This document shows positions 159 through 21,336 of a DNA stretch of 21,864 nt, piece by piece (position 1 is the stretch's first letter; each line of letters opens with the position of its first letter). The stretch comes from a virus. Position numbers and translations under genes: made by a program. The notes beneath the pieces were generated by a model, which saw nothing but the letters and a program-made list of their open reading frames with translations, ran no database searches and had not been told where the DNA came from. The stretch covers positions 1 to 21,864 of the IMG/VR virus record IMGVR_UViG_3300046009_012299; one strand, written 5' to 3'.

Positions 159-2153
159 TTATCCACCGAATACATATAAATTTTCTTCTTGAAATTTTAA
201 AAGTTCATCACTTGGTGGTTTGGTTGGTATAGCATTACCAACCGCTGATGTTGGTTCTGGTGGTCCTACAGAAGATATTGCAGCCCCTAATATACTTCCT
301 GATATATATTTAGGGGTATCAGATTCACCATCTGCTGCTTGAGCAATATTAGAAATGGTAAAATATTTTTGTGAAGGTCTATTAACTCCATTAGTTTGAG
401 AACCAATAGGAGTAAAGGTCATTTGTACTTCTACTATATGAGGTAAAACCATTTGATTTAATGAATCTGTTATGTTAACTTCCCAAGGAGATTCTTGAGG
501 TACTGTATATGATAATGAATTTAATATTCCATCTTGTCCATTAACCCAATTTCCAACTGTCATTTTTACTAGAGGTCCTCTCATTAAATTATTATCATAA
601 TCAGGCATTAAATTACTCATTAAATAATTTAATTTTTGATACATTGGTTTCATTTCTTGTGCTGATAATGCTGCTACTTTAAATCCAATATTTATTTTTC
701 TAATAAATCCATTGTATATATAAAAATCTTCTCCTCTACCAGCATATTTAGTATTATTCCAAGTAGCATCTACACTATCTGATAATTGAGTTAAATAGGC
801 TCTAAAAACCATCCATTTATTGTCAGAAGGATTAGTTCCATCTATAGCTCTAATTTGAAAATTTACTAGATCGTTAATATCAACAATTTTATCATCTATA
901 TTAATCCATCCATTAGTTGGAGCGTTTTTGTTATTTAATTCAAATATAGGAACTAAATTTAACTTATCTTGCCTTCCACTTCCTATTCTTTCTTCTCTAG
1001 ATGCGCGTTGCCAAGTAGGATATTTTTTAGTGTCTATTACTACTACCTCATCATATCCGTTTCTGTATGGTGATCGTGATAAGTCGTCGTATAAACTAAA
1101 ATTAGAATTTTGAAAAGAAACAGGTTCTTCTTTATTATTTCTACTTTTTCCTGAAAGATTTTTTGATTGAGCAAATGATTCTTTTATTTTTATAGTATCC
1201 TTACTATCATAATATTTTCTAATTATAGTAGGTCCTATTCCATAAACAGACCCTGGTCCACCTATGAGATCTATTTTTATATAGTTATTTTGGAATGGAT
1301 TTATTTTATTATCTTGTGGGAAAGCTGTAGCTAAAGTTTTACTCCTTTTTTCTGTATTAGATAAGGTAAATTGATTATTATTTGAAGTATTAGTAATGGT
1401 ATTAGAAGGAAGAGAAGGTGCTGGTAGGAAAGTAGAAATTCTATTTGCATTAGTGTATCCAGCTCTAAATTTCTTTTTTAGAGATGCTAATCTATTTCCA
1501 ATATTTCTAAAGTTTGTATTATCATAGTCTCCTAATTCATTATTAAAAGTAACTATTTTTTCATACGAGCTATTTCTATCACTATTGCTTTGGATTGGGG
1601 ATAAACCATGTCTTATAAAATGACCTCCAAAAGCATTAGTACCAACTTGAGCTAAAGTATTAATACCTAAATTATATATACGAGTTGGTTGTAATACACC
1701 TCCTGTTATTCTACCTATAAAACCACCTATTCCAGTAAGAAGTGTAGGTCCTTTTCTAGTTTCTAATATTGGATTTGATAATTGTAAACCTACTTGTTTA
1801 GCTAAAAATATAGGACCTTTAGGTAAAGAAGCAAGAAATGCACTAATACGAAATACATCATTAATAGATGCTTGAAGAGATCCTATACCTCCTCCTCTAA
1901 TAAAATCATCTCCATTTACTGCATCAAGTATAAATTGTCCTATTTTTTTCCTACCCAAAAGAGTAGTAAAGTTAGGAACTGCAGGAATAGAACTTACTCC
2001 AACAAGAGCAAGAGGATTTCTAGCTGAGGTATTTACTTCAATGTCCCCATTAGAGTATGAAATTATAAAAGGTTGTCCACTATCACTACCGCCAGGGCGA
2101 TCATGACCATATCTGCACGATGTTAAATCACTTTTTAAATTAATTAAGGGCAT
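159..2153 (-). CDS. Baseplate / tail-tube-initiator-like structural protein (664 aa)
   Basis: The C-terminal third (about residues 430-595) looks like a baseplate tube-initiation protein. It has a run containing YAGRGEDFYIYNGFIRK, then a helix with MYQKLNYLMSN, then VKMTVGNWVNGQDGILNSLS, VPQESPWEV and a strand ending MTFTPIG. Patterns of this kind occur in gp48/gp54-type proteins that start the tail tube on the baseplate. The first ~290 residues are Gly/Asn/Ser-rich with short hydrophobic stretches (about 105-155) and match nothing I recognise, so the protein is far longer than T4 gp48 (about 364 residues). The C-terminus is Pro-rich. It lies between the 99-aa gene and gp53, in the baseplate block. 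Role in the tube/baseplate junction is inference; a hub or wedge component is the alternative. Confidence 0.55.
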   Translation of the reverse strand: MPLINLKSDLTSCRYGHDRPGGSDSGQPFIISYSNGDIEVNTSARNPLALVGVSSIPAVPNFTTLLGRKKIGQFILDAVNGDDFIRGGGIGSLQASINDVFRISAFLASLPKGPIFLAKQVGLQLSNPILETRKGPTLLTGIGGFIGRITGGVLQPTRIYNLGINTLAQVGTNAFGGHFIRHGLSPIQSNSDRNSSYEKIVTFNNELGDYDNTNFRNIGNRLASLKKKFRAGYTNANRISTFLPAPSLPSNTITNTSNNNQFTLSNTEKRSKTLATAFPQDNKINPFQNNYIKIDLIGGPGSVYGIGPTIIRKYYDSKDTIKIKESFAQSKNLSGKSRNNKEEPVSFQNSNFSLYDDLSRSPYRNGYDEVVVIDTKKYPTWQRASREERIGSGRQDKLNLVPIFELNNKNAPTNGWINIDDKIVDINDLVNFQIRAIDGTNPSDNKWMVFRAYLTQLSDSVDATWNNTKYAGRGEDFYIYNGFIRKINIGFKVAALSAQEMKPMYQKLNYLMSNLMPDYDNNLMRGPLVKMTVGNWVNGQDGILNSLSYTVPQESPWEVNITDSLNQMVLPHIVEVQMTFTPIGSQTNGVNRPSQKYFTISNIAQAADGESDTPKYISGSILGAAISSVGPPEPTSAVGNAIPTKPPSDELLKFQEENLYVFGG

Positions 2154-2163
2154 TTATTTAATA

Positions 2164-2463
2164 TTAGTAGCGTCCTCCTTCTGGTCCTAGATCTGAATAT
2201 GTGCGGCCTGTTTTGGATTTATATACTTGTGTTACAACTCCAGTTACTTGAAGATTTGGAGCAATAGAATCCAATTCATCCATTGTTGATGGTAATGGTT
2301 TGAATCCAGAGCCATTACTTGGCCTCCAGGCTACATCGGGGTTGCCATCAACAGAATATAAATCATGTAATGAATTTGGTGGGATTGGATTTACGCCAAA
2401 ATTTTGTGGTTTTTGTCCTTTTAATCCTAAAATGCTATTTGGTAATTTTTTTTCTAAGCTCAT
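2164..2463 (-). CDS. Small conserved-looking structural-region protein (99 aa), function unknown
   Basis: A 99-residue soluble protein beginning MSLEKKLPNSILGLKG, followed by a Pro/Asn-rich stretch with PNSLHDLYSVDG. The central part has a LPSTMDELDS motif, and the end reads VVTQVYKSKTGRTYSDLGPE. There is no signal peptide or membrane segment. It is probably an extended, ligand-like structural peptide, because Pro, Gly and Asn are common and long helices are absent. The gene sits 30 bases after the tape measure gene with the ATATTTAT octamer in the gap, and ends 10 bases before the next baseplate gene. Position suggests a small tail or baseplate component. I do not recognise a named family. 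Confidence 0.72.
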   Translation of the reverse strand: MSLEKKLPNSILGLKGQKPQNFGVNPIPPNSLHDLYSVDGNPDVAWRPSNGSGFKPLPSTMDELDSIAPNLQVTGVVTQVYKSKTGRTYSDLGPEGGRY

Positions 2464-2493: not shown

Positions 2494-4857
2494 TTATGAT
2501 GTTCTGGTAGCACTTTTCTCCATTTTAGTGATTATTTCTGTACCATCTACATATAATTTTATAGGGCGATTTGATATTCCTGTTATAGCTGTTTTAACTT
2601 CATTAAGTGCCGTTATCATTGGAGTTAAATCAACATCTCCGGATAAATTAAGTGCACCTTTAGGGAATGATGTAACATCATCACCTTTAAATAGATTAGT
2701 ACCCGCTATTACAGTATCTTGATTATTTAATGCTATGGGTCCTTTTGGTGTAATAAGTGTTCTGGCTCCATATCCAACCATATCATCAGAAAGTAGTGCT
2801 GCTCCTCCACCTAGTAATCCACCAGCAATAGCTCCGATAGCAGTTCCTATTACAGGAAAAGCACTACCTAGCATTGCTCCTGATGCTGCTCCGCCTAATA
2901 TTCCAGCACTAACATTTAATCCTTTAGCTAAATCTTCATTACCAGCTTCAGATGCTTCTGAAGCAGCATATCCAAGACCTAAAGAAGCTAATATACCAGC
3001 AATACCCCCTTTTGTTACCATTCCTTTTCCTATTCCTCCTTTTGGAGCTTTAGTAAATCTACCTGTTTTAGGATCTCTGTATCTATTTGCTTTAGAGTCA
3101 AATACGGGACCACCTTTTTTACTTCCTCCTCCACCCCCAAAAAAACCTCCACCTCCTCCTCCACCACCAGCAACAGAAAAATCTTTAGTAATCATTGGAT
3201 TAATGTAGGTACCTTTAAGAAGTGATTTACCTATAACATATACTAAAGCACCTACTGTTGCTAGAGATGCTGCTCCTCCTAGTGCTGAGCTTGCGTTTTC
3301 TCCTAGTATTTTTTTAAATCCTTCCCCTATTTTTCCAACAAACCCAAACATTTTTCCTATAATATCTAATCCTTTACTTAATGATTCTATAAAGGCACTC
3401 ATAGGACCAGTTACTAAATTACCAACAAGATCTTGTAATTTAAGAATAGCTTGGTTAAATTTATCTTGTATATCTTGTCTTTTTTGGGCTTCGTCTGCTT
3501 CTTCTTTAGTTATTTGTGCTAAAGATTTACCTTGTTCTTGAGCAATTTTTTGTTTTCTTAACTGATCAGCTAATTCATCAGCTGTTAATCCAACAGCTTC
3601 AGCAATAGCTTTCTTTTGTAGAACATTCATTCTATCAAATTCAGCTAAACTACCTACTTGAGAAAATAGTTCTTGTGCTGCTGTAACTTGATCACCTGCT
3701 AAAGCAGCTGCTCTAGCTCTTTCTAGATTAAGTTGTTTACCAGTTAATAACTCTGCTTTTAATTCATTCTCAATTGATGTTTCAAAATTAAGAAGTGCTT
3801 CTCCTTGCTTTGATGTTTGTTCTAAAGAAGTACCTAATGCTTTAGTAGCAACTACTGCTTTAACTATAGCAGGAGGACTATTTTGTAAATTAGAGGCTAA
3901 AATACCAGATACTTTAGCTGCTTCAGCCATTGTTGCTCTAAATGGAACCGCCTTTCCAAGTTGGTTTCTTGCAGCAACAAAAGCACCAACCATTTCATCA
4001 TTAACTTTTTCTGATGATTTTCCTGTTAATAATGATAATTTATATATTCCTGCTGCTTCTTCACCTGTTAACTTAAATTGCTTAGTTAACATTATCTGGG
4101 TCTCTAGAGCATCTTTTGAATATTCAGATACAAATCCAGTAGCAGCATTTAATTCATTTGTTGCATCAGCTGCGTTTTGTAAAGTAAAATTAAGATTATC
4201 TGATGTTTGGGCAGCAGCAACTAATTCTTTAGTGTATCTGTTGGCGTTATCAACACCATATCCTAAATTTTTACCTAGATCAACTGATACTTTATTAAAG
4301 CGTAATCCAGAGTCAATAATTGCTTTAAATAAACCTGCTATACTAAATAACTTTGATGCAGATTCGTAGATATTTTTAAACTCGTGATCTAGATATCCAA
4401 GTAGGGTTCGTTGTTTCTTTCTTTCTTCATTATTTTTCTTTTCGGTTTCTGCTACATTAGAAAGAGTTCTTAGATAATCTAATAGTGATTCATTTAATTG
4501 CTGTTGTAATAAATTATCTTGTAATTGAAGAGTAAGTGAATCTTTTTGGGCTTTTAATTTAGCATCATATTTTTTATTAAGTTGTTGATTAATATCTAAT
4601 AACTTATATTGTAATTTATTTTGGTCAAGACCTAATCTTCTATTTTCTGTTTGGGCTTTTCTAAGAGCAGCTGATGTTTTTTTAGTAACATCTTCACCTT
4701 TTTCAAGGCTACCTATTATACCATTAATTTCAGTACTAGTTACAGCAAGCTGCTTATTTAGATTATTTTGAATCTGTTTAGAAATATCATCTATAACTTC
4801 CTCAAGATTATCTAAATCTTCACTAAGTTTTTTAATTATTTGTGGATCAGTAGCCAT
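2494..4857 (-). CDS. Tail tape measure protein (787 aa)
   Basis: Tape measure proteins set tail length and pass through the tube at DNA ejection. The first ~160 residues are strongly coiled-coil (many Gln, Lys, Glu, Leu). A long Ala-rich helical region follows to about 480. A hydrophobic segment lies near 520-545 (ASSALGGAASLATVGALVYV), then a poly-Gly stretch (nine Gly in a row, then FF and five more), a basic NRYRDPKTGRFTK motif, and Gly/Ala hydrophobic segments around 605-690. The C-terminal part has MVGYGARTLITPKGPIALNN and DTVIAGTNLFKG, typical of tape measures in similar phages. It follows the gp26-like and chaperone-like frames, the usual order. At about 1.5 angstrom per residue the tail would be roughly 115-120 nm, which is an estimate. 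It has its own hairpin and ATATTTAT octamer upstream. Confidence 0.85.
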   Translation of the reverse strand: MATDPQIIKKLSEDLDNLEEVIDDISKQIQNNLNKQLAVTSTEINGIIGSLEKGEDVTKKTSAALRKAQTENRRLGLDQNKLQYKLLDINQQLNKKYDAKLKAQKDSLTLQLQDNLLQQQLNESLLDYLRTLSNVAETEKKNNEERKKQRTLLGYLDHEFKNIYESASKLFSIAGLFKAIIDSGLRFNKVSVDLGKNLGYGVDNANRYTKELVAAAQTSDNLNFTLQNAADATNELNAATGFVSEYSKDALETQIMLTKQFKLTGEEAAGIYKLSLLTGKSSEKVNDEMVGAFVAARNQLGKAVPFRATMAEAAKVSGILASNLQNSPPAIVKAVVATKALGTSLEQTSKQGEALLNFETSIENELKAELLTGKQLNLERARAAALAGDQVTAAQELFSQVGSLAEFDRMNVLQKKAIAEAVGLTADELADQLRKQKIAQEQGKSLAQITKEEADEAQKRQDIQDKFNQAILKLQDLVGNLVTGPMSAFIESLSKGLDIIGKMFGFVGKIGEGFKKILGENASSALGGAASLATVGALVYVIGKSLLKGTYINPMITKDFSVAGGGGGGGGFFGGGGGSKKGGPVFDSKANRYRDPKTGRFTKAPKGGIGKGMVTKGGIAGILASLGLGYAASEASEAGNEDLAKGLNVSAGILGGAASGAMLGSAFPVIGTAIGAIAGGLLGGGAALLSDDMVGYGARTLITPKGPIALNNQDTVIAGTNLFKGDDVTSFPKGALNLSGDVDLTPMITALNEVKTAITGISNRPIKLYVDGTEIITKMEKSATRTS

Positions 4858-4875
4858 AATATAATGTTACATCAT

Positions 4876-4883
4876 ATAAATAT
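4876..4883 (-). promoter_or_regulatory. ATATTTAT octamer before the tape measure gene
   Basis: Coding-strand context TTTTAATATTTATATGA, starting at the U-tract of the hairpin at 4885-4911 and ending 18 bases before the tape measure ATG. The terminator-then-octamer order is what a promoter for a new transcription unit would show. Confidence 0.5.
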
Positions 4884-4884
4884 T

Positions 4885-4911
4885 AAAAGCGCCTATTTTT
4901 TAGGCGCCTTT
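4885..4911 (-). terminator. Intrinsic terminator-like hairpin between chaperone frame and tape measure
   Basis: On the coding strand the arms are AAAGGCGCCTA and TAGGCGCTTTT around a loop of five A, pairing over 11 positions with one mismatch and followed by TTTTAATATT. The stop codon TAG of the upstream frame lies in the second arm. A GC-rich stem plus a T tail in an otherwise AT-rich region is typical of a Rho-independent terminator; it may also insulate or attenuate tape measure expression. Confidence 0.65.
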
Positions 4912-5081
4912 ACTGTGTATGTCGGTTGTTTTGTAGGAGCTATGTCCGGCTTTTTTACATCTTTACCAGACTTATTTTTTAACATGTTTTGTTGTTTTTC
5001 TGCTTCTTCACGTTGTTTATCAAAATGTTCTTTTAATAAATTATAAGTGAAAAGACGCAACCATACAGGCATATTGTACAC
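4893..5081 (-). CDS. Tail assembly chaperone-like protein, probably expressed by frameshift from the gp26-like gene
   Basis: The shortest reading is a 62-residue ORF from a GTG at 5081, with MPVWLRLFTYNLLKEHFDK and then a Lys/Gln-rich charged tail. The same frame, however, is open upstream to 5195 and there reads PDYRIYLFRQIHEIVFNG and GGYDWDTVYNMP, a coherent aromatic/helical sequence with no ATG. The GTG therefore falls inside what looks like one domain. The frame overlaps the end of the gp26-like gene in the +1 frame, and the tape measure gene follows. That geometry matches tail assembly chaperone pairs such as lambda G/GT, where the second frame is made only as a fusion. A +1 shift would give a 332-residue fusion. 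Non-ATG initiation or a sequencing indel in the T7 run are alternatives. The stop codon lies in a terminator-like hairpin. Confidence 0.7.
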   Translation of the reverse strand: MYNMPVWLRLFTYNLLKEHFDKQREEAEKQQNMLKNKSGKDVKKPDIAPTKQPTYTVKAPKK

Positions 5082-5195
5082 GGTGTCCCAGTCGTACCCA
5101 CCATTACCATTAAATACTATTTCGTGAATTTGTCTAAATAAATAAATTCTATAATCAGGCGTCAGGCCAAAAAAAGTTAAGAGATACTGGTATTG
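5082..5195 (-). other. Candidate +1 frameshift region between gp26-like gene and downstream chaperone frame
   Basis: The downstream frame is open from 5195 (directly after a TAG at 5198-5196) and overlaps the gp26-like gene to its TGA at 5157-5155. Two shift sites are plausible. One is a run of seven T on the coding strand (5175-5169, codons TTT TTT TGG), where P-site tRNA-Phe could slip +1 to TTT GGC. The other is the slow stop context GCC TGA T at 5160-5154. Both give a fusion of 332 residues, because the total depends only on the frame change. A -2 slip on the T run is also formally possible. No ATG exists in the downstream frame before 5074. Confidence 0.55.
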
Positions 5196-5892
5196 CTATA
5201 CCCTCCCCTGTATAATCTTCATCCTGCGGCACATATGTCAAATTAATATCTGGGGAGATTTGATTGTAGTATTCGCGTAATGATCTAGCATCTCTAGCCA
5301 TTAAATAATTATCTACGAAGTCACGAATATCTTTTTGATCGCGTTTGCCTTCAACAGATGTAATCATATGCTTTAAACGTGTAGTAGAATCTACAGTTAC
5401 GTTTGGATTTACTTTTTGCATACCTTTAACTTCAGCCTCAATCTTTTGCTCATCCCCATGTGTAAATAACTTAAATGTAACGTTATTTTTTGAATGAGGT
5501 AAAGTAAAACTAAATTCATTTACACCACGTTTAAATAACGATGTGTCTACTACTTTATCTTCTAACGTAGACAAATCAGCAGTGTATTCTTTATCATTAA
5601 AATCAAACTTATAATCTTTACCGTATCCTAAAATACGAGCAGCAACTAATACTGCATTTTTATCACCAATTAGTAATTCATTATAATCAATTGGTGTGAT
5701 GATTAATGCTTGTAATAACTTATCAATTACAGTACCTTGACGAATGAAGTTGGTATTGGTAAGGATATCTTCTTCCTTAGCCGTCATGTACTTCATTTCA
5801 ATTTCTCCTTTAGCTAGTGGAGATGTCTCAGGATACAGTAAACCTTTCGATGGAAGCGAAACAATCTCTGTTGGAACTTTTAATTCAGCCAT
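5155..5892 (-). CDS. T4 gp26-like baseplate hub / tail assembly protein (245 aa)
   Basis: The N-terminus reads MAELKVPTEIVSLPSKG with GLLYP, then EIEMKYMTAKEEDILTNTNF, which is the hallmark of the T4-like gp26 baseplate family (T4_baseplate). After it come IDKLLQALI, a LLIGDKNAVLVAARILGYG segment, a beta-rich middle and a helical part with KDIRDFVDNYLMARDARSLR. It ends with SLNFFWPDA. The length of 245 is normal for the family. In T4, gp26 is assigned to baseplate hub assembly. Its place immediately before an overlapping out-of-frame ORF and the tape measure suggests a tail assembly chaperone role instead of, or as well as, a structural one. The start has an A/T-rich leader and an ATATTTAT octamer 22 bases upstream. 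Confidence 0.82.
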   Translation of the reverse strand: MAELKVPTEIVSLPSKGLLYPETSPLAKGEIEMKYMTAKEEDILTNTNFIRQGTVIDKLLQALIITPIDYNELLIGDKNAVLVAARILGYGKDYKFDFNDKEYTADLSTLEDKVVDTSLFKRGVNEFSFTLPHSKNNVTFKLFTHGDEQKIEAEVKGMQKVNPNVTVDSTTRLKHMITSVEGKRDQKDIRDFVDNYLMARDARSLREYYNQISPDINLTYVPQDEDYTGEGIAIPVSLNFFWPDA

Positions 5893-5950: not shown

Positions 5951-7996
5951 CTATATAAAGTTTTGTATATATTCTAAATATGTAGGCTTTCTACTCGATA
6001 ACCCAACTCTTCTATCATCTGGTTTAGCAGGTGGGTCGTAAGGCTCAGCATATTTAGTTGCGCCGCGTCCAGTAACAACATTATATCCTTTTACACTTCC
6101 TACTTTTAATGAAGTTACTGGGTATATTGTTGGGTCAGTTTCATCTGGTTTGTATGGGATTCCTCCTGTTATTCCATCATATATAAAGCCACTGCGTCCT
6201 TCTAGGATATATTTTCCAACAAGTGGACTTTCTCTATCAAGCCTAGTAAAATCATAGGCATCATACTTAATAATTTTTTGATTATTATCATTATTAGTTA
6301 AAATAAGATGCAATAAATTACTATTTTTTCTGTATGGTGGAGCAACAGTAAGAGAATCAACAAATGTACTATATTTAAATGCGCTAGAATTTCTATTATT
6401 TGAACTTCTTACATTATCTAATTCTGTTTTATCAAGTACTTTTGGATCAGAATTTAAACCAGGAATACTCCCTTCACTTAGTTTACTCTCTATAGTTTTA
6501 ATTGGATTTTTTGATAGATATGTATTTTCAGGATTATATACTTGATTAAATTTTGCAAATGGTCCAGGTACACCATTATTAAGTGGGGTACCTGTTGCTA
6601 GTGTATTTTTAGGTGCTGTTGGATCCTTATCTTGTTTATAAGGAATACCACCATTAGGGAATTCATTTTCAACATCTAAATTAGTACTGTCAAATGTAAG
6701 ATCTAATATTCCCTCTCCTACATTATCTAAATATTCTTTTTGTGGATTATATTCCTGATAGAATTTTTCAGGAGCTCCAGGATTAAAATCTGCATTAGGG
6801 GTACCAGTTACTCGTTTTGGATACCTTGTAGGATCTTTATCTTGTTTGTAAGGAATACCACCATTAGGAAGTTTATTTTCAACATCTAGATTAGTATTAG
6901 CTACAGTAGATATTAATTTACCTTCACTATTGTTTGAAATTTCATCTAGATATGTATTTTGTGGTTCGTAACTATGTTTAAATTTACTAAATGGACCTGG
7001 ATTAGATCTAGTAGTAGGAGTTCCTGTAACTGTTTCTGGGTATAATGTTGGGTCTTTATCTTCTTTATAAGGAATACCTCCATCTACTCTAGAGTTTTCA
7101 ACATCTAAATTAGTATTAGCAACTGTACTTCTTAATCGGCCTCTTCCTCTAATAGGATTATTTATTAAATAAACATTTTCAGGATTAAATGTTTGTTTAA
7201 ATTTATTAAAGGGACCTGGATTGGATTTAGTAGTAGGAGTACCAGTTATATACTGGGGGTATGATGTTGGGTCTTGAAAAGAAAGAAGAGATTCAATGTT
7301 AGAAAGATCAAATATGTTTTCTATCTTACTATATCCTGCGATTCTTGTATATGCTTCTAAATAGGTACTATTAGGAATAAAATCTTGAGAAAAGTTACGA
7401 GCAGGACCAGGATTAATAGGAATAGAATTACCTTCGCCAGGAAGTACTTTTAATACTGGTGCCCCTGTAACTAGAGGACCATATTGTGTAATAGTATCTG
7501 ATCTGCGAAAATTATTTCCTGGTAGTGGGTTTTCTAGATCAAGATATGAAGAATCAAATCCAACACGTAATAAAGAATATTCTTTATTTTGATGTGTTTT
7601 TAAATAAGTACTATCAGGAAAGAATTTAGGTACATATTGTTTAGGAGCTCCTGGATTAGCATCTTTATTAGGAGTTCCAGTATTTGTTTCAGGATATGAT
7701 GTTATAGTTCCAGGAAAAGTAGAAAGAGATTCAAAGTTAGAAAGTTCAAATACTTTTTCTATCTTACTATATCCTACAGTTCTTTTATATGTTTCTAAGT
7801 AAGTATTAGTAGAAATAAAATCTTGAAAAAAGTTACGAGCCGGACCTGGATTAATAGAGGTAGTTCCATTAGCGGTTGGTGTTCCTGTAACTAGAGGGCC
7901 ATACTGTGTAATAGTATCTAACCTAAACAATCCAGTAGGGTCGGAATTTTCTAGGTCTAGATTTGTTATTTTAAATGAATTTAATAAATCTCCCAT
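5951..7996 (-). CDS. Tandem-repeat structural protein of unknown function (681 aa, seven ~72-residue units)
   Basis: I do not recognise a family. Residues ~11-495 consist of seven diverged copies of a unit that carries, in order, an (N/Y)LD(V/L)EN motif, GGIPYK.DKDPT (in later copies), TGTP, NPGP or NPGA, then F..Y.P..TYL. The TGTP motifs start at residues 37, 106, 177 (TGAP), 251, 324, 397 and 468, a period of 69-74. Units 1 and 3 share an extra segment (DTITQYGPLVTG and GYSKIE with FELSN/FDLSN), so a pair of units was duplicated once. Residues ~525-620 form a non-repeat domain with LLHLILTNNDNNQK. A decayed GGIPYK unit lies near 611, and the end is PTYLEYIQNFI. No signal peptide or membrane segment. 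It sits between tail tube and gp26-like genes as its own unit, with terminator and octamer upstream, so a tail or baseplate role is likely but inferred. Confidence 0.85.
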   Translation of the reverse strand: MGDLLNSFKITNLDLENSDPTGLFRLDTITQYGPLVTGTPTANGTTSINPGPARNFFQDFISTNTYLETYKRTVGYSKIEKVFELSNFESLSTFPGTITSYPETNTGTPNKDANPGAPKQYVPKFFPDSTYLKTHQNKEYSLLRVGFDSSYLDLENPLPGNNFRRSDTITQYGPLVTGAPVLKVLPGEGNSIPINPGPARNFSQDFIPNSTYLEAYTRIAGYSKIENIFDLSNIESLLSFQDPTSYPQYITGTPTTKSNPGPFNKFKQTFNPENVYLINNPIRGRGRLRSTVANTNLDVENSRVDGGIPYKEDKDPTLYPETVTGTPTTRSNPGPFSKFKHSYEPQNTYLDEISNNSEGKLISTVANTNLDVENKLPNGGIPYKQDKDPTRYPKRVTGTPNADFNPGAPEKFYQEYNPQKEYLDNVGEGILDLTFDSTNLDVENEFPNGGIPYKQDKDPTAPKNTLATGTPLNNGVPGPFAKFNQVYNPENTYLSKNPIKTIESKLSEGSIPGLNSDPKVLDKTELDNVRSSNNRNSSAFKYSTFVDSLTVAPPYRKNSNLLHLILTNNDNNQKIIKYDAYDFTRLDRESPLVGKYILEGRSGFIYDGITGGIPYKPDETDPTIYPVTSLKVGSVKGYNVVTGRGATKYAEPYDPPAKPDDRRVGLSSRKPTYLEYIQNFI
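6512..7966 (-). repeat. Seven ~216-bp diverged tandem repeats in the 681-aa gene
   Basis: This is the DNA region coding residues ~11-495. Units have a period of 69-74 codons, marked by TGTP and NPGP motifs. Units 4-7 are most alike; units 1 and 3 are a longer matched pair. Divergence at DNA level indicates an old expansion. Confidence 0.85.
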
Positions 7997-8000
7997 ACCT

Positions 8001-8008
8001 ATAAATAT
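8001..8008 (-). promoter_or_regulatory. ATATTTAT octamer before the 681-aa repeat gene
   Basis: Coding-strand context TTTTAATATTTATAGGTATG: the octamer ends only 4 bases before the start codon and directly follows the U-tract of the terminator at 8016-8043. If it is a -10-type element, the transcript would be leaderless or nearly so. Confidence 0.48.
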
Positions 8009-8015
8009 TAAAAGA

Positions 8016-8043
8016 AAAGACGCTTGCTAAAGCAAACGTCTTT
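8016..8043 (-). terminator. Intrinsic terminator after the tail tube gene
   Basis: Coding strand: AAAGACGTTTGC, loop TTTA, GCAAGCGTCTTT; eleven pairs with one internal mismatch, then TCTTTTAA. It lies 24 bases after the tube stop codon and ends just before the octamer and start of the 681-aa gene. This is the strongest terminator in the window. Confidence 0.75.
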
Positions 8044-8067: not shown

Positions 8068-8553
8068 TTAGAAGTTGAGGATACAATAATCCATCGCAAT
8101 GTTTACAGTTAAATTAATTGCTGCTTCGTTTGCCCAATCGTATTCACCGAAAGTAGATGATTTTACATAGGCACCTTTAATAATCCATTCACTTACGATA
8201 TCACCTACTGGGCCTAAAATGTCTAATGTTAAATCTTTCTTATAAAAGTCAGAATAACCATCTCTACCCGTTACTGATTCGTGTGATAAACGTACCCATT
8301 CCATTACTGCTTGTGCACCAGATGGAGTTACTGGATCGTATAGGCTTAGCTGCATGTCATTCCATCTAACTTTACCTTTTACTTTACGGTAAACGTTAAT
8401 ATGGTCTAAAACAATATCACTAGCTTCGAATCCAGGAGCAGCAGCTGCTTTAATCAAATATGCTGGGATACCGTCAATATACATTATAAAGCGATTCTGA
8501 ACTTTAGGTTCAAACGCTGTAAACATTATTTCATTTGCCGAAATTGTTGCCAT
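8068..8553 (-). CDS. Tail tube protein, T4 gp19-like (161 aa)
   Basis: The tube protein stacks as hexameric rings inside the contractile sheath and forms the DNA channel. The 161-residue length matches T4 gp19 (163). Family features seen are an N-terminal NRFIMYIDGIPAYLIK strand, a middle with KVKGKVRWNDMQLSLYDPV, the AQAVMEWVRLSHE helix, DLTLDILGPVGDIVSEW, and a C-terminal NEAAINLTVNIAMDYCIL strand. It follows the sheath gene as in T4. An unusually strong hairpin and an ATATTTAT octamer lie between them, so it may be transcribed separately at high level, as expected for a tube protein needed in over a hundred copies. Start ATG at 8553 has an A-rich leader without Shine-Dalgarno. Confidence 0.93.
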   Translation of the reverse strand: MATISANEIMFTAFEPKVQNRFIMYIDGIPAYLIKAAAAPGFEASDIVLDHINVYRKVKGKVRWNDMQLSLYDPVTPSGAQAVMEWVRLSHESVTGRDGYSDFYKKDLTLDILGPVGDIVSEWIIKGAYVKSSTFGEYDWANEAAINLTVNIAMDYCILNF

Positions 8554-8594: not shown

Positions 8595-8621
8595 CTACAT
8601 TCCCCTATGCAGGGAATGTAG
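8595..8621 (-). terminator. Perfect 10-bp hairpin at the end of the tail sheath gene
   Basis: The arms CTACATTCCC and GGGAATGTAG pair perfectly around a 7-base loop (TGCATAG on the coding strand) that contains the sheath's TAG stop codon. The T tail is poor (TTATTAA), so it may act as an mRNA-stabilising or processing hairpin rather than a true terminator. The octamer for the tube gene follows 6 bases later. Confidence 0.55.
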
Positions 8622-10326
8622 CGCCGGTTGGTTGTACGTTGAAGTTCAAGATAATGAATTCAGCAGTCTTAGTTGGTTGAATATAAATCTGACCTACTAA
8701 TTGATTGCGATCAATTACATCAGGTGTGTTATTTGATTCATCCATTACTACTCTATAAGCATATAAACCTTGACGTTGTACTACTGAATCAAGATATGGA
8801 TTAACTTGAGATAAGAATCTATTACGAGTTACCTGAGTATTTTGTTCAAATACTAAAGTATTACCTACTTGACCAATATAATCTTTCAATGCAATCAATA
8901 AACGACGAACGTTTACACGATCAAGTGCTGTTGATTTTTTCTGCAATGTTTTCTGACCAAATACTACAACACCTTCTCCAGGGAATGTAGCTAATGGATT
9001 AACATTACCTAAATATAATGCATCACGATCTGATTGAGTTAATTTTCTTTCAGCACGTAATACTGAAGGAACACCACCGCGGTTTAAACCTGCAGGAGCA
9101 AACCATTCAGCACCTATTTGGTCGTTAAATGCTAATACACCACCCATTATTGTTGATGGAGGACACCATACATTCTGACCTAATGCTGTTGAGAATAATT
9201 GAATCCAAGGCCAATATGTTGCAGCGTAATTGCTTGATTGACCTGAAGCAGCAGCAGCTGCACTTGATACTACAGCACCATATACTTTACAATCAACCAT
9301 TGCGATTGCATCACCACGCTCTTCACAAATAGAAATCATTCTTGAAGAAGCAGCATTATCTAAACCAACACCTGGGGCTAACAATACATTGAATCTATAT
9401 TCATCTTTATTAGCTAATAGGTTAAATGCTGTGTTATAATCAGCAGGTGCAAATCCTTGAACATTAGTTGTTGAAACATTTTCATTAAATAATGATGGAG
9501 ATGCAGCACCGTTAGTTAATCCACCTGCAAAAGCACCAGCAAGTGAACCACTTCCTACAGCTGGTAACCCAGCAGCATATGATCCTGTTTTGTAATTGCC
9601 GTTGTTGTCAATAGAATCTGGTTGAGGAGCAAGTACTGATTTAACTCTAACATAGAGAGAAGCATTAGTATAAGAACCAGTAGAGTCAATATATGGATTA
9701 AAATCAGTATCTAAACGATAAACAGGTCTAATATCACCAATTACACGAGAAATATAGTTTGGTAATCCTGGATCTAATGATAAATTAGACCAAGTTTCTA
9801 AATAGTTAGGTTGAGCAGTGTTATCATTACCGGCACGAATAGCTAAAGTAAATGTACCACTACCTGTATTTACTTGTGTAACTTCCCAACGAACATTAGT
9901 TGAACTACCACTAGCTAAAGCGCCAGCGTTAATAGGACTAACGTTATTCATTACATCACCCCAAGCTAATGTTTCAAGTTGGAATGAAGCACTATTATTA
10001 CTTGAAGAAACACTAGCAGAAGCATAAGTACTAAGACCAGTACTACCACTAATAACTCTAGTAACTAATAATGTCTGTCCGCCATTTTGAAAGAAATCTT
10101 TAGCGGCTAATGATGTAAAGTATTCGTAATAGTAACTACCACTTTTAAATGATTCTCCAAATTTTTGTGCAAATTCACTGTAAGAAGTAACGTAAGTAGG
10201 AACATATGGTTGACCCAACACAGTTGGACCAACAATAGCCGTTGCTGAACCTACAATACCCCTTTGAACTAACGATTGGTCAGATTCATTTTGGAATACG
10301 CCAGGAGATAAAATTTTTTCTGCCAT
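8605..10326 (-). CDS. Contractile tail sheath protein, T4 gp18-like (573 aa)
   Basis: The sheath surrounds the tube and contracts at infection. The N-terminus (LSPGVFQNESDQSLVQRG, then TAIVGPTVLGQPYVPTYVTS, then YSEFAQKFGES) and the C-terminal domain (about 455-573: LDRVNVRRLLIALKDYIGQV, FEQNTQVTRNRFLSQVNPYL, QRQGLYAYRVVMDESNN, QIYIQPTKTAEFIILNF) are typical of the sheath family. These termini exchange strands between neighbouring subunits in solved sheaths. The central part (~100-300) is Ser/Ala/Gly-rich and probably forms the variable surface domains. At 573 residues it is somewhat shorter than T4 gp18 (659). The stop codon is inside a perfect 10-bp hairpin. The octamer lies 42 bases upstream of the start. 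Confidence 0.96.
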   Translation of the reverse strand: MAEKILSPGVFQNESDQSLVQRGIVGSATAIVGPTVLGQPYVPTYVTSYSEFAQKFGESFKSGSYYYEYFTSLAAKDFFQNGGQTLLVTRVISGSTGLSTYASASVSSSNNSASFQLETLAWGDVMNNVSPINAGALASGSSTNVRWEVTQVNTGSGTFTLAIRAGNDNTAQPNYLETWSNLSLDPGLPNYISRVIGDIRPVYRLDTDFNPYIDSTGSYTNASLYVRVKSVLAPQPDSIDNNGNYKTGSYAAGLPAVGSGSLAGAFAGGLTNGAASPSLFNENVSTTNVQGFAPADYNTAFNLLANKDEYRFNVLLAPGVGLDNAASSRMISICEERGDAIAMVDCKVYGAVVSSAAAAASGQSSNYAATYWPWIQLFSTALGQNVWCPPSTIMGGVLAFNDQIGAEWFAPAGLNRGGVPSVLRAERKLTQSDRDALYLGNVNPLATFPGEGVVVFGQKTLQKKSTALDRVNVRRLLIALKDYIGQVGNTLVFEQNTQVTRNRFLSQVNPYLDSVVQRQGLYAYRVVMDESNNTPDVIDRNQLVGQIYIQPTKTAEFIILNFNVQPTGATFPA

Positions 10327-13097: not shown

Positions 13098-15395
13098 TTA
13101 TTTGCTTTGTAATAAATATTTTAATTCGTTTATCTGATTTTGTTGTTCTTTAATTGCTTCAATAAGTACGCCTACTATATTACCATACGCTACACTATAA
13201 TTTCCTTTATTATCTTGTTGTACTACTTCAGGTAATATATTAAGTACTTCTTGGGCAATCACACCTACTTTACGAGATTTATCTTCAATATCATTACGAT
13301 TGTAATAAACACCACGAAGAGAAGTTACTTTATCTAAGGCATTAGTAATTGTTTCTACATTATCTTTAACACGAGCATCTGAGAAGGCGATTACATCTGA
13401 TGTAGCTCGGATATCTCCTGTTACATCTAAAGCGTATGCTGGTGAAGTTGTGCCTATACCAACACTACCTCCTCCAAGTATTGTTACTCTAGTACCACCA
13501 TTTGTAACTAATTTTAATGAAGCATTATTAGCTTGATCAATAAAAAATTCATTACTTGCAGCGGGTACATAAATTCTACCTCCATTATTATTAGCTGAGT
13601 CTCCAAAATAGGCAGCATAACTATTATTTACTTTTATATTGCCTCCTACTACATGGAGTCTTTCTGTAGGAGCTGTAGTACCTATACCAATACTACCTCC
13701 TGCAGGTTGTAAATTTAAAGCGTTTGTATTATAAATATATTTTAATAAGTTATTACCGGCCGTACCATAGAAATTTATAGTATCTGCGGAATCATATCTT
13801 GATTCAATATCAAAATAATAAGTGGCTGGTGATGTTGCTGTAGATAATCTAAGTTTTACACCATTTCCTTGTACGTCTAATTTTGTAGCTGGGGAAGTAG
13901 TGTTTATACCTACATTTCCATTAGTATTAATATTTGCATATGTAGTACCACCACCTCTGCTTCTAAAATAATGATTTGTGTTATCATAGTAGTTACCAGG
14001 ATCTGAAGCATTTCCTATATACATGGCAACGTTACCTGCTGGTTCGTATATTCTATTATAGAGAGAATCTCTATCCGCAAATAGAGAGCTAGCTGAGCTA
14101 GAAGCAAATCCTAAACTTCCAGAAATTTGTAATCTATATTGTGGGTTAGAAGTACCTACACCTAAGTTAGTTCCATCAAATATTAAATTAGCTTCAGCAT
14201 TTATCGTTGATGCATTAACAGATGTAATAACTCTATTATCACCTGAGTTTGTATATGAAGTAATACCTGCGCTTGCTCCTGTAGTTCCTTGGGCTCCAGT
14301 AGCACCTTGTGTACCGGTTCCCGTAGCACCAGTTGCGCCTTGGGCTCCAGTAGCACCTTGAGTTCCAGTACCAGTTGCACCAGTTGCGCCTTGAGCACCT
14401 GTTCCTCCAGTAGCACCTTGAGCACCTGTTCCTCCAGTAGCACCTTGAGCACCCGTTCCTCCAGTAGCACCTTGAGCACCTGTTCCTCCAGTAGCACCTT
14501 GAGCACCCGTTCCTCCGGTTGCGCCTTGAGCACCAGTAGCTCCTTGCAGACTTAAATTTGATCTATATCTAATATTTCCACTAGCATCAGCAACAACAAC
14601 ATTAGTTTCTGTTGATCCTACTGGGATGTTTGAAAAAGCTAATGAACCTGTTATACTTACGGATCCAGTAAACTGGTGAGTATTAGCTATAAGACTTCCA
14701 AAACGAGTAGAACCAGTTATAAAGCTTTGAGATGAAGTTATTGTTTGGGCTACAATTGTAGTTACCGTTAGTGTATTTCTTACATTAAAATTATCTGCTG
14801 AAGATGCTGTATTTGCGAATGTAGCATATGATGCTGAGGTAGCGTTTGCTGCTAATGTAGCAAATGAAGCTGTATTAGCATTTAATGCACGTGATGCCGT
14901 TACTGCATTTGCAGCAATTGATGCTGAGGTAGCGTTTGCTGCTGATGTAGCAAATGAAGCAGAAGTTGCACTAGCAGCAGATGTAGCGAATGAAGCAGAA
15001 GTTGCACTTGCCGCTAATGTAGCAAATGACGCGGTATTGGCATTTAAAGCGCGAGAAGCAGTTACTGCGTTATCTGAAATTGAAGCAGTAATAGCAAATG
15101 AAGCAAATGATGCGGTATTGGCATTAAGTGCCCGAGATGCAGTTACTGCATTTGTTGCAATTGAAGCTGAAGTAGCTGAAGCTGCACTTGTTGCAAATGA
15201 AGCAGAAGTGGCATTAGCAGCAGATGTAGCAAATGAAGCAGATATAACATTATTAGCCCAACTCGCAGTACCAAACAAAGAACCAGTAAATCCTTGTGTA
15301 ACTACTAATGATCCAGTAATCACTGCATTTCCTGTTTGTGTATAGGAACCACTTATTCTCAACGAACTTGTAATAAATCCACTATCTATTAACAT
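13098..15395 (-). CDS. Tail fibre/spike with Ala-Ser repeats, collagen-like stretch and C-terminal S74 chaperone domain (765 aa)
   Basis: Domains in order. Residues 1-50 are a head domain with [15 protein letters not shown]. Residues 51-200 are Ala/Ser/Thr repeats ([25 protein letters not shown]). Residues 285-374 are collagen-like Gly-X-Y, including five exact GATGGTGAQ units (291-335). Residues 400-660 are beta-helical with four copies of a GIGTTSP...LDVxG motif (near 412, 496, 570, 646). Residues 668-765 are a peptidase S74 intramolecular chaperone. In that family a Ser and a Lys five residues later release the chaperone after trimerisation; here FSDARVK gives Ser672 and Lys677, so it should be active. 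[16 protein letters not shown] and a terminal coiled coil complete the domain. The mature protein is probably a trimeric receptor-binding fibre. It heads the unit 15395-11713, with an octamer 21 bases upstream. Confidence 0.9.
13112..13119 (-). promoter_or_regulatory. ATATTTAT octamer overlapping the end of the S74 fibre gene
   Basis: Coding-strand context AAAATATTTATTACA; it encodes KYLL near the fibre's C-terminus and ends 15 bases before the 105-aa gene's ATG. It could be coding coincidence, but the spacing equals that at other gene starts. Confidence 0.3.
14391..14525 (-). repeat. Five tandem 27-bp repeats coding GATGGTGAQ in the collagen-like stretch
   Basis: Five contiguous 27-base units within the S74 fibre gene encode residues 291-335; third-position variation is small (acctgtt versus acccgtt). 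Imperfect units continue to 14274, with two GTGTQ interruptions of the Gly-X-Y phase. In-frame units of 27 bases allow length change by slippage without breaking the gene. Confidence 0.9.
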
Positions 15396-15416
15396 ATTGT
15401 ATTGTGATTATCTGGT

Positions 15417-15424
15417 ATAAATAT
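15417..15424 (-). promoter_or_regulatory. ATATTTAT octamer before the S74 fibre gene
   Basis: Coding-strand context TTTAAAATATTTATACCAG in the 44-base gap after the 91-aa gene, 21 bases before the ATG at 15395. Confidence 0.45.
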
Positions 15425-18961: not shown

Positions 18962-19002
18962 ATTATATTATTTCAGTTCACTTTCCCTGAAATGGGTTAC
19001 GT

Positions 19003-19010
19003 ATAAATAT
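19003..19010 (-). promoter_or_regulatory. ATATTTAT octamer before the 645-aa fibre gene
   Basis: Coding-strand context CCTTAATATTTATACGTAAC. It starts within the stop codon of the 87-aa gene and ends 41 bases before the fibre's ATG. A weak inverted repeat (TTTCAG/CTGAAA) lies between octamer and start. Confidence 0.45.
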
Positions 19011-19276: not shown

Positions 19277-19984
19277 TTATAAATTAAATCGTGATTTTTG
19301 TGCGTTGTAGTTTTGTAAAATTTCTGATGTTGAGAGAGTACGGTTATAAACTTGAATATTAGCTATGCTTCCATTAAGATATCTTCCACTACTAACCCTA
19401 GGATCACGACCTAATACTACTACAGAATTTGAATTATTTACAATTCCAGTACTTATTCCTGTACTAGTACCATACAAAGTTCCATTTATATACATTATTA
19501 TATTAGATGTATTAATAGTTCCTGCTAGAAAATACCAAGTATTATTATCTAAAATAGAAGATGCTATATTTTTCCAAGCTCCATTATCATTAACGTAAAA
19601 AGTTACTGTATTATTAGTATTACCATGCATTAACCAAACATTAGATGTCATGTCATCTAGAGAAAGAGTTGATTGGCCACAACCAGCACCTGTTAATAAA
19701 TCTCCATTTCTTTTTATCCACCAACAAACTGATAGTTGGTTTGTGTATTGGTAAAATGCTTGACCTGCTGTTGTTGTTGTATAATCATCAACGCCATCAA
19801 ACACAATACTTCCTCCATTAGCACTGTTGAAAGTAGGACTATTAGTTAAAGTACTATTACTATTATTCCCAGACATATCTCTCCAAGCAGTTCCACTACC
19901 AGGATAAGAATTTTTATCAGCAGCATCTAATGCTAATACTAATCCATTTGTTACTATTTTACCAAATGCATATTGTGTTGCCAT
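19277..19984 (-). CDS. LamG/concanavalin A-like lectin-fold protein, copy 3 (235 aa)
   Basis: Layout shared with the next two genes: an N-terminal GLVLALDAADKNSYPGSGTA segment, a W..MSGN linker, then a LamG-type jelly-roll beginning GGSIVFDGVDDYTTT. That domain continues with strands LSVCWWIKRNGD, WYFLAGTINTSNIIMYINGT and LNGSIANIQVYNRTLS, and the protein ends SEILQNYNAQKSRFNL. The 'G.I..FDG.DDY' opening and 'G.I...++YNR.LS..EI..NY' ending are typical of the Laminin_G_3 superfamily, which binds sugars or proteins. It is probably a virion surface lectin that helps the phage grip host or environmental glycans. It lies 3 bases after copy 2 and 3 bases before the 87-residue gene. Confidence 0.82.
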   Translation of the reverse strand: MATQYAFGKIVTNGLVLALDAADKNSYPGSGTAWRDMSGNNSNSTLTNSPTFNSANGGSIVFDGVDDYTTTTAGQAFYQYTNQLSVCWWIKRNGDLLTGAGCGQSTLSLDDMTSNVWLMHGNTNNTVTFYVNDNGAWKNIASSILDNNTWYFLAGTINTSNIIMYINGTLYGTSTGISTGIVNNSNSVVVLGRDPRVSSGRYLNGSIANIQVYNRTLSTSEILQNYNAQKSRFNL

Positions 19985-19987
19985 AAC

Positions 19988-20659
19988 TTATAATCCAAAT
20001 CTTGTTTTAGTTGCGTTATAATTTTGTTTTATTTCTGATGCTGAGAGTGCTCTGTTATATATTTTTGTTAATGAACAATTATAGTTTTGAGCAGCAGAAT
20101 TACTTATTGCACCATTTATAAAAACTGAATTCGTAGTGATTCTAACTGCACCGCTTTTTGCAGTAGTAGCAACCTCATTAAGATTATAGTATACTCTTAC
20201 TATAGAATTATCGTATGTTCCTACAATGTATGCCCACTGATTTAGTGGGACTATAATATTTGCGTGGGTACTTTCCCATCCCCCAGTTCTTTGCATCCAA
20301 ACTCCTAAAAGATTAGTACCTTCGCCCCAGTAATGAGATAAAATATACGAACCTTCTTTTCTTATTATATGCCCATTTGTGGAATTATTAATAGGATAAA
20401 CCCAAGATTCTAAAGTAAAATTATTAACTTGTAAAGTAGAGCTATTTGATATTTCAACATAATCATCAACTCCATCAAAAACAATACTTCCATTATTAGC
20501 ACTACTAAAAGTAGGACCATTAGTTAATATTCCGTTGTTACTATTACCAGATAGATCTGTCCAAGCGGTTCCACTACCTAAATAAGAATTCCTATCAGCA
20601 GCATCTAATGCTAATACTAATCCGTCTTGAATCATATCTGGTCCACCTGATATTCCCAT
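19988..20659 (-). CDS. LamG/concanavalin A-like lectin-fold protein, copy 2 (223 aa)
   Basis: Same architecture as its neighbours: GLVLALDAADRNSYLGSGTA, then DLSGNSNNGILTNGPTFSS, then a jelly-roll opening GSIVFDGVDDYVEIS. It continues with LQVNNFTLESWVYPINN, WAYIVGTYDNSIVRVYYN and the ending TKIYNRALSASEIKQNYNAT. This copy has the most canonical LamG core (FTLESWV, W.yIvGTYD). The loops differ from the other two, as expected if binding specificity diverged while the frame was kept. It starts 2 bases after copy 1's stop. There is no enzymatic motif, so a carbohydrate- or protein-binding role on the virion is inferred. Confidence 0.84.
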   Translation of the reverse strand: MGISGGPDMIQDGLVLALDAADRNSYLGSGTAWTDLSGNSNNGILTNGPTFSSANNGSIVFDGVDDYVEISNSSTLQVNNFTLESWVYPINNSTNGHIIRKEGSYILSHYWGEGTNLLGVWMQRTGGWESTHANIIVPLNQWAYIVGTYDNSIVRVYYNLNEVATTAKSGAVRITTNSVFINGAISNSAAQNYNCSLTKIYNRALSASEIKQNYNATKTRFGL

Positions 20660-20661
20660 AG

Positions 20662-21336
20662 TTATAAGCCGAAGCGTGATTTTTGTGCGTTATAGTTTTG
20701 TAGGATTTCTGATGCTGGGAGAGGACGATTATAATAATATACTGAAGCTATAGAAGAAGAAACATATACATTCTGTGCTCGTCCAATATATTCAATACTA
20801 AAAGATCCATTTACAGATCCTGTAGGTGTACAAGCAACTCCATTATTGTATATAGTAGCAATTCCAAATCTATCTACAACAAAACAAAAATCATTATATT
20901 TTTGTTCTAAAGAAAATGCAGGAGATAAAGGAAATAAAAAGCTATATGCTGATAATGATGCAGAAGTATTCCATATTATAAAGCGATTATTCCATTCTAA
21001 ATACATAGAATTTTGTGTAGTTCCTGCTGAGATTTCAGATATTCTAAAATAATTAGTTGATGAAGCAGTTATATTGGATTTAAATATGTATCTTAAAGTA
21101 AAACTACTAGTTAAAGGAATTGATTGACTTAAACTAATATAATCATTTACTCCATCTAATACAATACTACCTCCACTTTCAGTACTAAAAGTAGGACCAT
21201 TAGTTAAACTACCTGTATTACTACCCGCTAAGTTCTGCCAAATAGTACCAGAACCAGAATAAGAATTCCTATCAGCGGCATCTAATGCTAATACCAATCC
21301 ATCAGTAACTATTCTAGGTCCATTCCCAAACGCCAT
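20662..21336 (-). CDS. LamG/concanavalin A-like lectin-fold protein, copy 1 (224 aa)
   Basis: First of three tandem paralogues. The N-terminus GNGPRIVTDGLVLALDAADR is near-identical in style to the others, followed by NLAGSNTGSLTNGPTFSTES and a jelly-roll opening GSIVLDGVNDYISLS. Later strands include FTLRYIFKSNITASS, YNDFCFVVDRFGIATIYNNG and IASVYYYNRPLPASEILQNY. The ends of the three genes (coding for NYNA.K.RFGL) are also close at DNA level. It starts one base after the stop of the 59-residue gene. Role as for the neighbours: a probable surface lectin or adhesin, not catalytic by any visible motif. Confidence 0.83.
   Translation of the reverse strand: MAFGNGPRIVTDGLVLALDAADRNSYSGSGTIWQNLAGSNTGSLTNGPTFSTESGGSIVLDGVNDYISLSQSIPLTSSFTLRYIFKSNITASSTNYFRISEISAGTTQNSMYLEWNNRFIIWNTSASLSAYSFLFPLSPAFSLEQKYNDFCFVVDRFGIATIYNNGVACTPTGSVNGSFSIEYIGRAQNVYVSSSIASVYYYNRPLPASEILQNYNAQKSRFGL

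Follow-up and report, generated by a model that had tools for sequence, protein, structure and literature searches.

This locus raises the question of what a long repeat protein does among the tail genes of an uncultured phage, and whether the number of its repeats follows from the dimensions or symmetry of the tail. The window, meaning the whole stretch of DNA analysed, corresponds to a linear virus record 21,864 bases long, with a GC content of 34%. In order of transcription, its tail genes encode the sheath, the tube, the repeat protein (REP), gp26L, small58, a probable tape measure, s99 and bp664:

8605..10326, minus strand: tail sheath protein, 573 aa (phrog_23, E 4.8e-78)
8068..8553, minus strand: tail tube protein, 161 aa (phrog_4542, E 9.9e-20)
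5951..7996, minus strand: REP, repeat protein, 681 aa, with an ATG start, no Cys, no Trp and one Met
5155..5892, minus strand: gp26L, baseplate-hub-like protein, 245 aa (phrog_150, E 2.3e-8; PF12322, E 3e-4, below its cut-off)
4893..5081, minus strand: small58, conserved small protein, 62 aa (blastp to a protein of locus L017)
2494..4857, minus strand: probable tape measure, 787 aa (from its position and from how the gene at the equal place in phage immuto is annotated, see below)
2164..2463, minus strand: s99, small extended-looking protein, 99 residues, in the slot between tape measure and bp664
159..2153, minus strand: bp664, conserved baseplate-module protein of no known family, 664 residues

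REP is rich in prolines, glycines, threonines and asparagines. The preliminary description of this DNA had placed TGTP or TGAP motifs at residues 37, 106, 177 (TGAP), 251, 324, 397 and 468, and these positions are exact. Their spacings are 69, 71, 74, 73, 73 and 71 residues (mean about 72), and shuffled sequences of the same composition contained a mean of 0.06 and a maximum of 2 TG[TA]P motifs in 3000 trials, against seven in REP. NPG[PA] and then [TVE]YL follow every TG[TA]P, with VPGP in place of NPG[PA] after the last of the seven, and GGIPYK occurs at residues 306, 379, 449 and 611. A hidden Markov model (HMM) of the unit delimits eight units:

7793..7966, minus strand: unit 1, residues 11-68, orthologous to the first units elsewhere in the family
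7598..7708, minus strand: unit 2, residues 97-133, partial match
7355..7543, minus strand: unit 3, residues 152-214, duplication pair of unit 1
7166..7276, minus strand: unit 4, residues 241-277
6938..7114, minus strand: unit 5, residues 295-353, with GGIPYK.DKDPT
6719..6895, minus strand: unit 6, residues 368-426
6512..6685, minus strand: unit 7, residues 438-495
6032..6175, minus strand: terminal unit, residues 608-655 matched, with two small insertions

What had been taken for a unique C-terminal domain followed by a decayed eighth unit is mostly the conserved last unit of the family (TRLDRESP...GGIPYK..ETDPTIYP...TYLEYIQNFI), which in the window comes with a long linker as well; only residues 505-555 or so are unique, with a counterpart solely in the closest relative, L004. 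The proposed duplication of two units left clear traces in the DNA, as copies of 144 nt (86% identical, spacing 438) and of 48 nt (88% identical, spacing 420), and in the protein, where 50 of 79 aligned residues of the copies are identical.

Profile scans of IMG/VR contigs yielded 37 and later 54 loci (numbered here with an L), and an iterated unit HMM, applied to all open reading frames (ORFs) of at least 50 residues in these loci, found 83 ORFs. They comprise 46 distinct sequences, two of which run off a contig, L023 being truncated at its start and L083 at its end. Two units are by far the commonest state (35 ORFs), next to single cases of one and of eight units, two cases each of three, four and five, and three of six; the window REP, with eight units including the terminal one, is the longest member. 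When clustered at 80% identity, the ORFs form 27 groups, 17 of which have two units only. The unit motifs are T.LD.E..P, GGIPYK..DPT.YP and TGTP....NPG...F.Q.Y.P..TYL, and among 32 two-unit members TGTP, NPG, F, TYL, T.LD, GG and DPT.YP vary little or not at all.

REP belongs to no known family. Profile searches of Pfam, PHROG and the PDB gave no significant match, tblastn with five family members gave none among 50,697 phage records of isolates, one profile scan of bacterial and archaeal genome contigs found none, and a literature search found nothing describing the protein. REP is a conserved yet unnamed protein family without known relatives, encoded within the tail module of one group of aquatic phages. 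The gene is constrained, with a dN/dS between window and L004 of 0.15, compared with 0.16 for the tube and 0.28 for the sheath, indicating purifying selection. Some members are clearly acidic in net charge and others basic, which argues against a single conserved electrostatic partner. In one member, L042 (8882-10240, net charge -42), about ten extra repeats of about 30 residues ('.T.LDLPNP..Y.G'), recognized by reading the sequence, precede two standard units.

Members retain the first and the last unit, except that the one-unit protein of L010 retains the last. In the members compared, these end units match the equal position elsewhere, and internal units often resemble one another or the internal units of relatives. 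This pattern makes it likely that a two-unit protein was the ancestral form and that the interior expands. The REP of L004 is identical to that of the window at 501 of 541 residues, and window residues 27-166 are cleanly absent from it. Synonymous divergence (dS) is 0.38 between the duplication copies in the window and 0.27 between the window and L004 orthologues, so the duplication seems older than the split of the two phages, and L004 has probably lost two units by recombination between repeats, which is likelier than a recent gain in the window. A change of the same kind separates other close relatives, L031 having four units and L025 and L032 five each.

REP was found in the tail module only, wherever its neighbours are in view, and there it uses two slots, which flank the cassette of hub-like, small58 and tape-measure genes. 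One lies between tube and hub-like gene, as in the window and most loci, and the other between tape measure and bp664, beside s99 (L012/L013/L034, L027/L054, L033/L036, L075/L076/L078/L083 and L152). Two loci fit neither slot, L042 with REP downstream of bp664 and L080 with no neighbour visible.

A search with the tube protein, of which the best 80 of at least 598 relatives were examined, showed how the first slot is filled in general. In the 69 readable loci (11 were not), the tube gene is followed directly by the hub-like gene in 53, by the hub-like gene after a longer stretch in 15 and by REP in one; since most contigs already found through REP were not listed again (L139 is an exception), 1 of 69 is not a frequency. 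Both slots are visible, with no REP beside the tube, in 34 loci of the same best 80 of 598, and two of these, L152 and L139 (the L075 contig under another number), have REP in the second slot. The closest tube without REP among the matches listed, that of L084, is 92% identical to the window tube, its sheath only 68%. Over whole records, all 10 chosen positive ones contained REP, as a single gene in each, and none of the 10 chosen negative ones did. The negative records include the isolates immuto (Flavobacterium phage vB_FspM_immuto, NC_055915) and Mel-JY01 (PP395634, Microcystis); judged by sheath, the closest isolates are phages of Flavobacterium and Microcystis. Both have the order sheath, tube, hub-like, tape measure and bp664-like as in the window, with sheaths about 50% identical to the window sheath, but REP is absent from the entire record.

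As most relatives found by their tube (best 80 of 598) are without REP, it is an accessory protein and not a required linker of tube and baseplate. A tube-to-baseplate link, one of the roles suggested earlier, is not supported as a requirement, given the direct tube-to-hub junction in 53 of the 69 readable loci of this sample and the subgroup in which REP lies between tape measure and the next baseplate gene. The order in T4, in which the portal gene comes after the tube gene, is irrelevant to the function of REP, because phages of this group normally have the hub gene after the tube gene.

In relatives, the stretch from tube to hub-like gene holds other genes, which by their sequences are HNH-type endonuclease-like genes and genes of small membrane proteins, and it is an insertion hotspot in the tail module. 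The position of REP is thus no evidence of a physical link between tube and baseplate. Unrelated genes occupy the slot in L123, L124, L125, L131, L132, L136, L140, L141, L143, L149, L153, L155 and L159. Homing or HNH-type endonuclease-like genes, recognized by eye, also lie inside the tail modules of L007 (10475-11080) and L010 (14332-14871), where they precede the tape measure and a hub-type gene.

REP appears to be inserted together with its own regulatory element, a short motif that recurs in the window:

8010..8043, minus strand: terminator-like hairpin 3' of the tube gene, upstream of the REP cassette, inferred by reading the sequence
8000..8008, minus strand: promoter-like element ATATTTATA, its end 3 nt upstream of the REP start codon
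5914..5922, minus strand: promoter-like element ATATTTATA of the hub-like gene
4875-4883, 2478-2486, 15416-15424 and 19002-19010, minus strand: further copies of ATATTTATA

The window contains eight copies, all on the coding strand, a number reached in 0 of 100 shuffles, and 6 of 21 genes examined, REP and the hub-like gene included, have one within 60 bases upstream. Among 43 distinct REP upstream stretches, 32 carry the motif somewhere from 130 bases upstream of the ORF start to 60 bases downstream of it. In the relatives without REP that were inspected, the tube hairpin is followed by a single element of this type. This layout suggests that REP is a promoter-plus-gene cassette set between the tube hairpin and the element of the hub-like gene. 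To judge by its appearance, the motif is a late-promoter element of this group of phages. Upstream of REP in several relatives, no more than 3-4 nt separate its end from the start codon, which would imply a leaderless mRNA if it is a -10 element.

The neighbour of REP in the second slot, s99, is present in nearly all relatives and gave no match to a known family. It is itself repetitive in some of them, with a tandem array of five 25-residue units ('[ST].LDL.G..P..Y') in L062 and L063. Genes for s99 in relatives are:

L062, 9249-9716: s99
L063, 6240-6707: s99
L145, 12430-12771: s99
L151, 12485-12808: s99

Like REP, s99 is a small Pro/Gly-rich protein of the same module, starting with MGLL.. 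in many members and forming a tandem array in some. Common ancestry of the two was an attractive idea in view of slots, start and repeats, but profile comparison gave probabilities of only 6% and 2%, and the HMM of the s99 repeat scored REP at a median of -0.9 bits against -0.4 for shuffled sequences (43 sequences reported of 46); it was rejected as a demonstrated homology. An s99-like protein of L148 (5285-5515) sits in the tube-hub slot used by REP elsewhere.

Other genes of the window encode candidate fibres. Three adjoining genes on the minus strand (19277-19984, 19988-20659 and 20662-21336) share the start DGLVLALDAADRNSY or one near it, and the middle one matches Laminin_G_3 (E 1.2e-20); they are, to judge from these features, tandem lectin-like paralogues. 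The gene at 13098-15395 (minus strand) encodes a fibre-type protein with collagen-like GAT/GGT repeats, among them a 27-nt tandem array (14380-14534), and an S74 chaperone domain at its C terminus.

The picture of an extended, repetitive tail-module protein, drawn in the preliminary description, holds in that REP is repetitive and probably extended; AlphaFold2 found no fold. A two-unit member modelled from 32 sequences reached a mean pLDDT of 52 and a pTM of 0.15, with one C-terminal helix, and the full window REP, from 14 sequences, 36 and 0.18, although such low confidence with 14-32 sequences may equally reflect too little data. The models show mainly short terminal helices and were too poor for fold searches. 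The abundance of Pro, Gly, Thr and Asn, the lack of Cys and Trp and the invariant motifs are most simply read as those of a chain that is shaped by its partner.

A comparison of unit number with tail length had been proposed, and a sixfold partner suggested. Tape measure proteins are long and helical, occur once per phage, and their length follows that of the tail. REP differs from them in having a separate tape-measure-like gene alongside, in showing no length correlation and in yielding no predicted helical array. With tape-measure length as a proxy for tail length, unit number gave a Spearman coefficient of -0.14 (p 0.49, n=26) over rows that are not independent, that include L083 (a cut REP with the tape-measure length of L075 repeated) and L016 (tape measure possibly broken), and that leave out L042, whose tape measure is cut by the locus end; the 18 rows with REP between tube and hub gave -0.05. 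Control by tail length is not supported by these values. Sixfold symmetry is not supported either, as proteins with 4, 5 and 8 units exist and the counts do not follow the divisors of six. A fixed unit number, which had been held to speak against a structural role, was not found, since the number varies among members.

The reading that we favour, tentatively and as a fair possibility short of a probable one, is that REP is an optional, extended and multivalent tail or baseplate string that docks on a repeated partner through its own repeated motifs. REP would be an accessory component of the contractile tail structure, most likely at the baseplate end, and an extended chain that does not fold by itself, in which units of about 72 residues each carry equal linear motifs. 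Each unit would dock on one copy of an identical partner surface, a single chain thereby holding several subunits together, and internal units would be gained and lost through recombination between repeats from a two-unit ancestor. The data show the family with its conserved motifs and two end units, the varying number of units, purifying selection, the accessory status and the place in the tail module, whereas we infer that REP is in the virion, that it docks and that its partner is the baseplate. Against this string counts the fact that most relatives, complete isolates included, do without REP (best 80 of 598, and the whole records). A search for PF09215, the connector of the T4 gp8 type, in 20 records gave no match, and the controls likewise gave none.

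Parallels exist in described baseplates. In phage A511 an extended BW3 chain passes across connector dimers set in a row, in beads-on-a-string fashion, and in Milano proline-rich motifs of the tailspike dock on proline-rich regions of wedge proteins (PMC10811340); in another paper (PMC11406892) A511 gp105 goes by a different name, BW3. REP may work like the A511 wedge chain or the Milano docking, with no claim of membership. BW3 is an extended chain, as REP probably is, and REP likewise would bind several partner copies in a row; the two differ in that REP stands alone as an accessory gene whose unit number varies.

A role in assembly is unlikely, although it is not far-fetched: REP would be a chaperone or scaffold outside the virion, holding tape-measure or hub subunits until the tail is built and then leaving. 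The two REP slots do border the hub-like, small58 and tape-measure cassette at both sides, and no fold is predicted. The siphophage tail assembly chaperones gpG/gpGT are encoded between tube and tape measure, involve a programmed ribosomal frameshift and are required for assembly. REP shares their position in the tube-hub slot only, the subgroup having it behind the tape measure, and it is absent from most relatives (best 80 of 598) and dispensable across the phage group. The genes for gp26L and small58, moreover, are present with or without REP and occupy what we take to be the place expected for tail chaperones.

It is rather improbable that REP is a surface decoration or adhesive strand, touching the host or environmental polymers and tuning reach or avidity through its units. 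An accessory gene whose unit number varies between close relatives, in a phage that has fibre-type proteins with collagen-like, S74 and lectin-like domains, would suit such a role. The strongly conserved motifs and a dN/dS as low as that of the tube do not suggest a fast-evolving adhesin, and REP contains no lectin or fibre domain and lies outside the fibre cluster.

Packing of REP in the tail lumen or hub and its ejection into the host before the DNA is very doubtful; an unfolded chain, nearly free of Cys and Trp and encoded next to the tape-measure cassette, would fit, but unit number is independent of tape-measure length and net charge is not conserved. Hardly any credit is left for a non-functional or selfish repeat expansion, a passenger gene that brings its own promoter-like element into a slot hosting endonuclease-like or membrane protein genes in other relatives, given a dN/dS of 0.15, motifs invariant over 32 members, a single gene in each of the 10 positive records and no occurrence outside the tail module where neighbours are visible.

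In an extension of the multivalent string that we regard as speculative and on balance improbable, REP would be the first seen of a class of variable-valency tail strings, in which the number of tail or baseplate subunit copies threaded or stapled together would equal the number of units, tuned by recombination and independent of tail length. With REP, the tail module of a group of uncultured Immutovirus relatives gains a conserved unnamed family, and the unit number of REP can vary eightfold with no matching change in tape-measure length. If REP is present in virions, its members would provide a natural series (1, 2, 3, 4, 5, 6 and 8 units) for the effects of a multivalent chain in a contractile tail.
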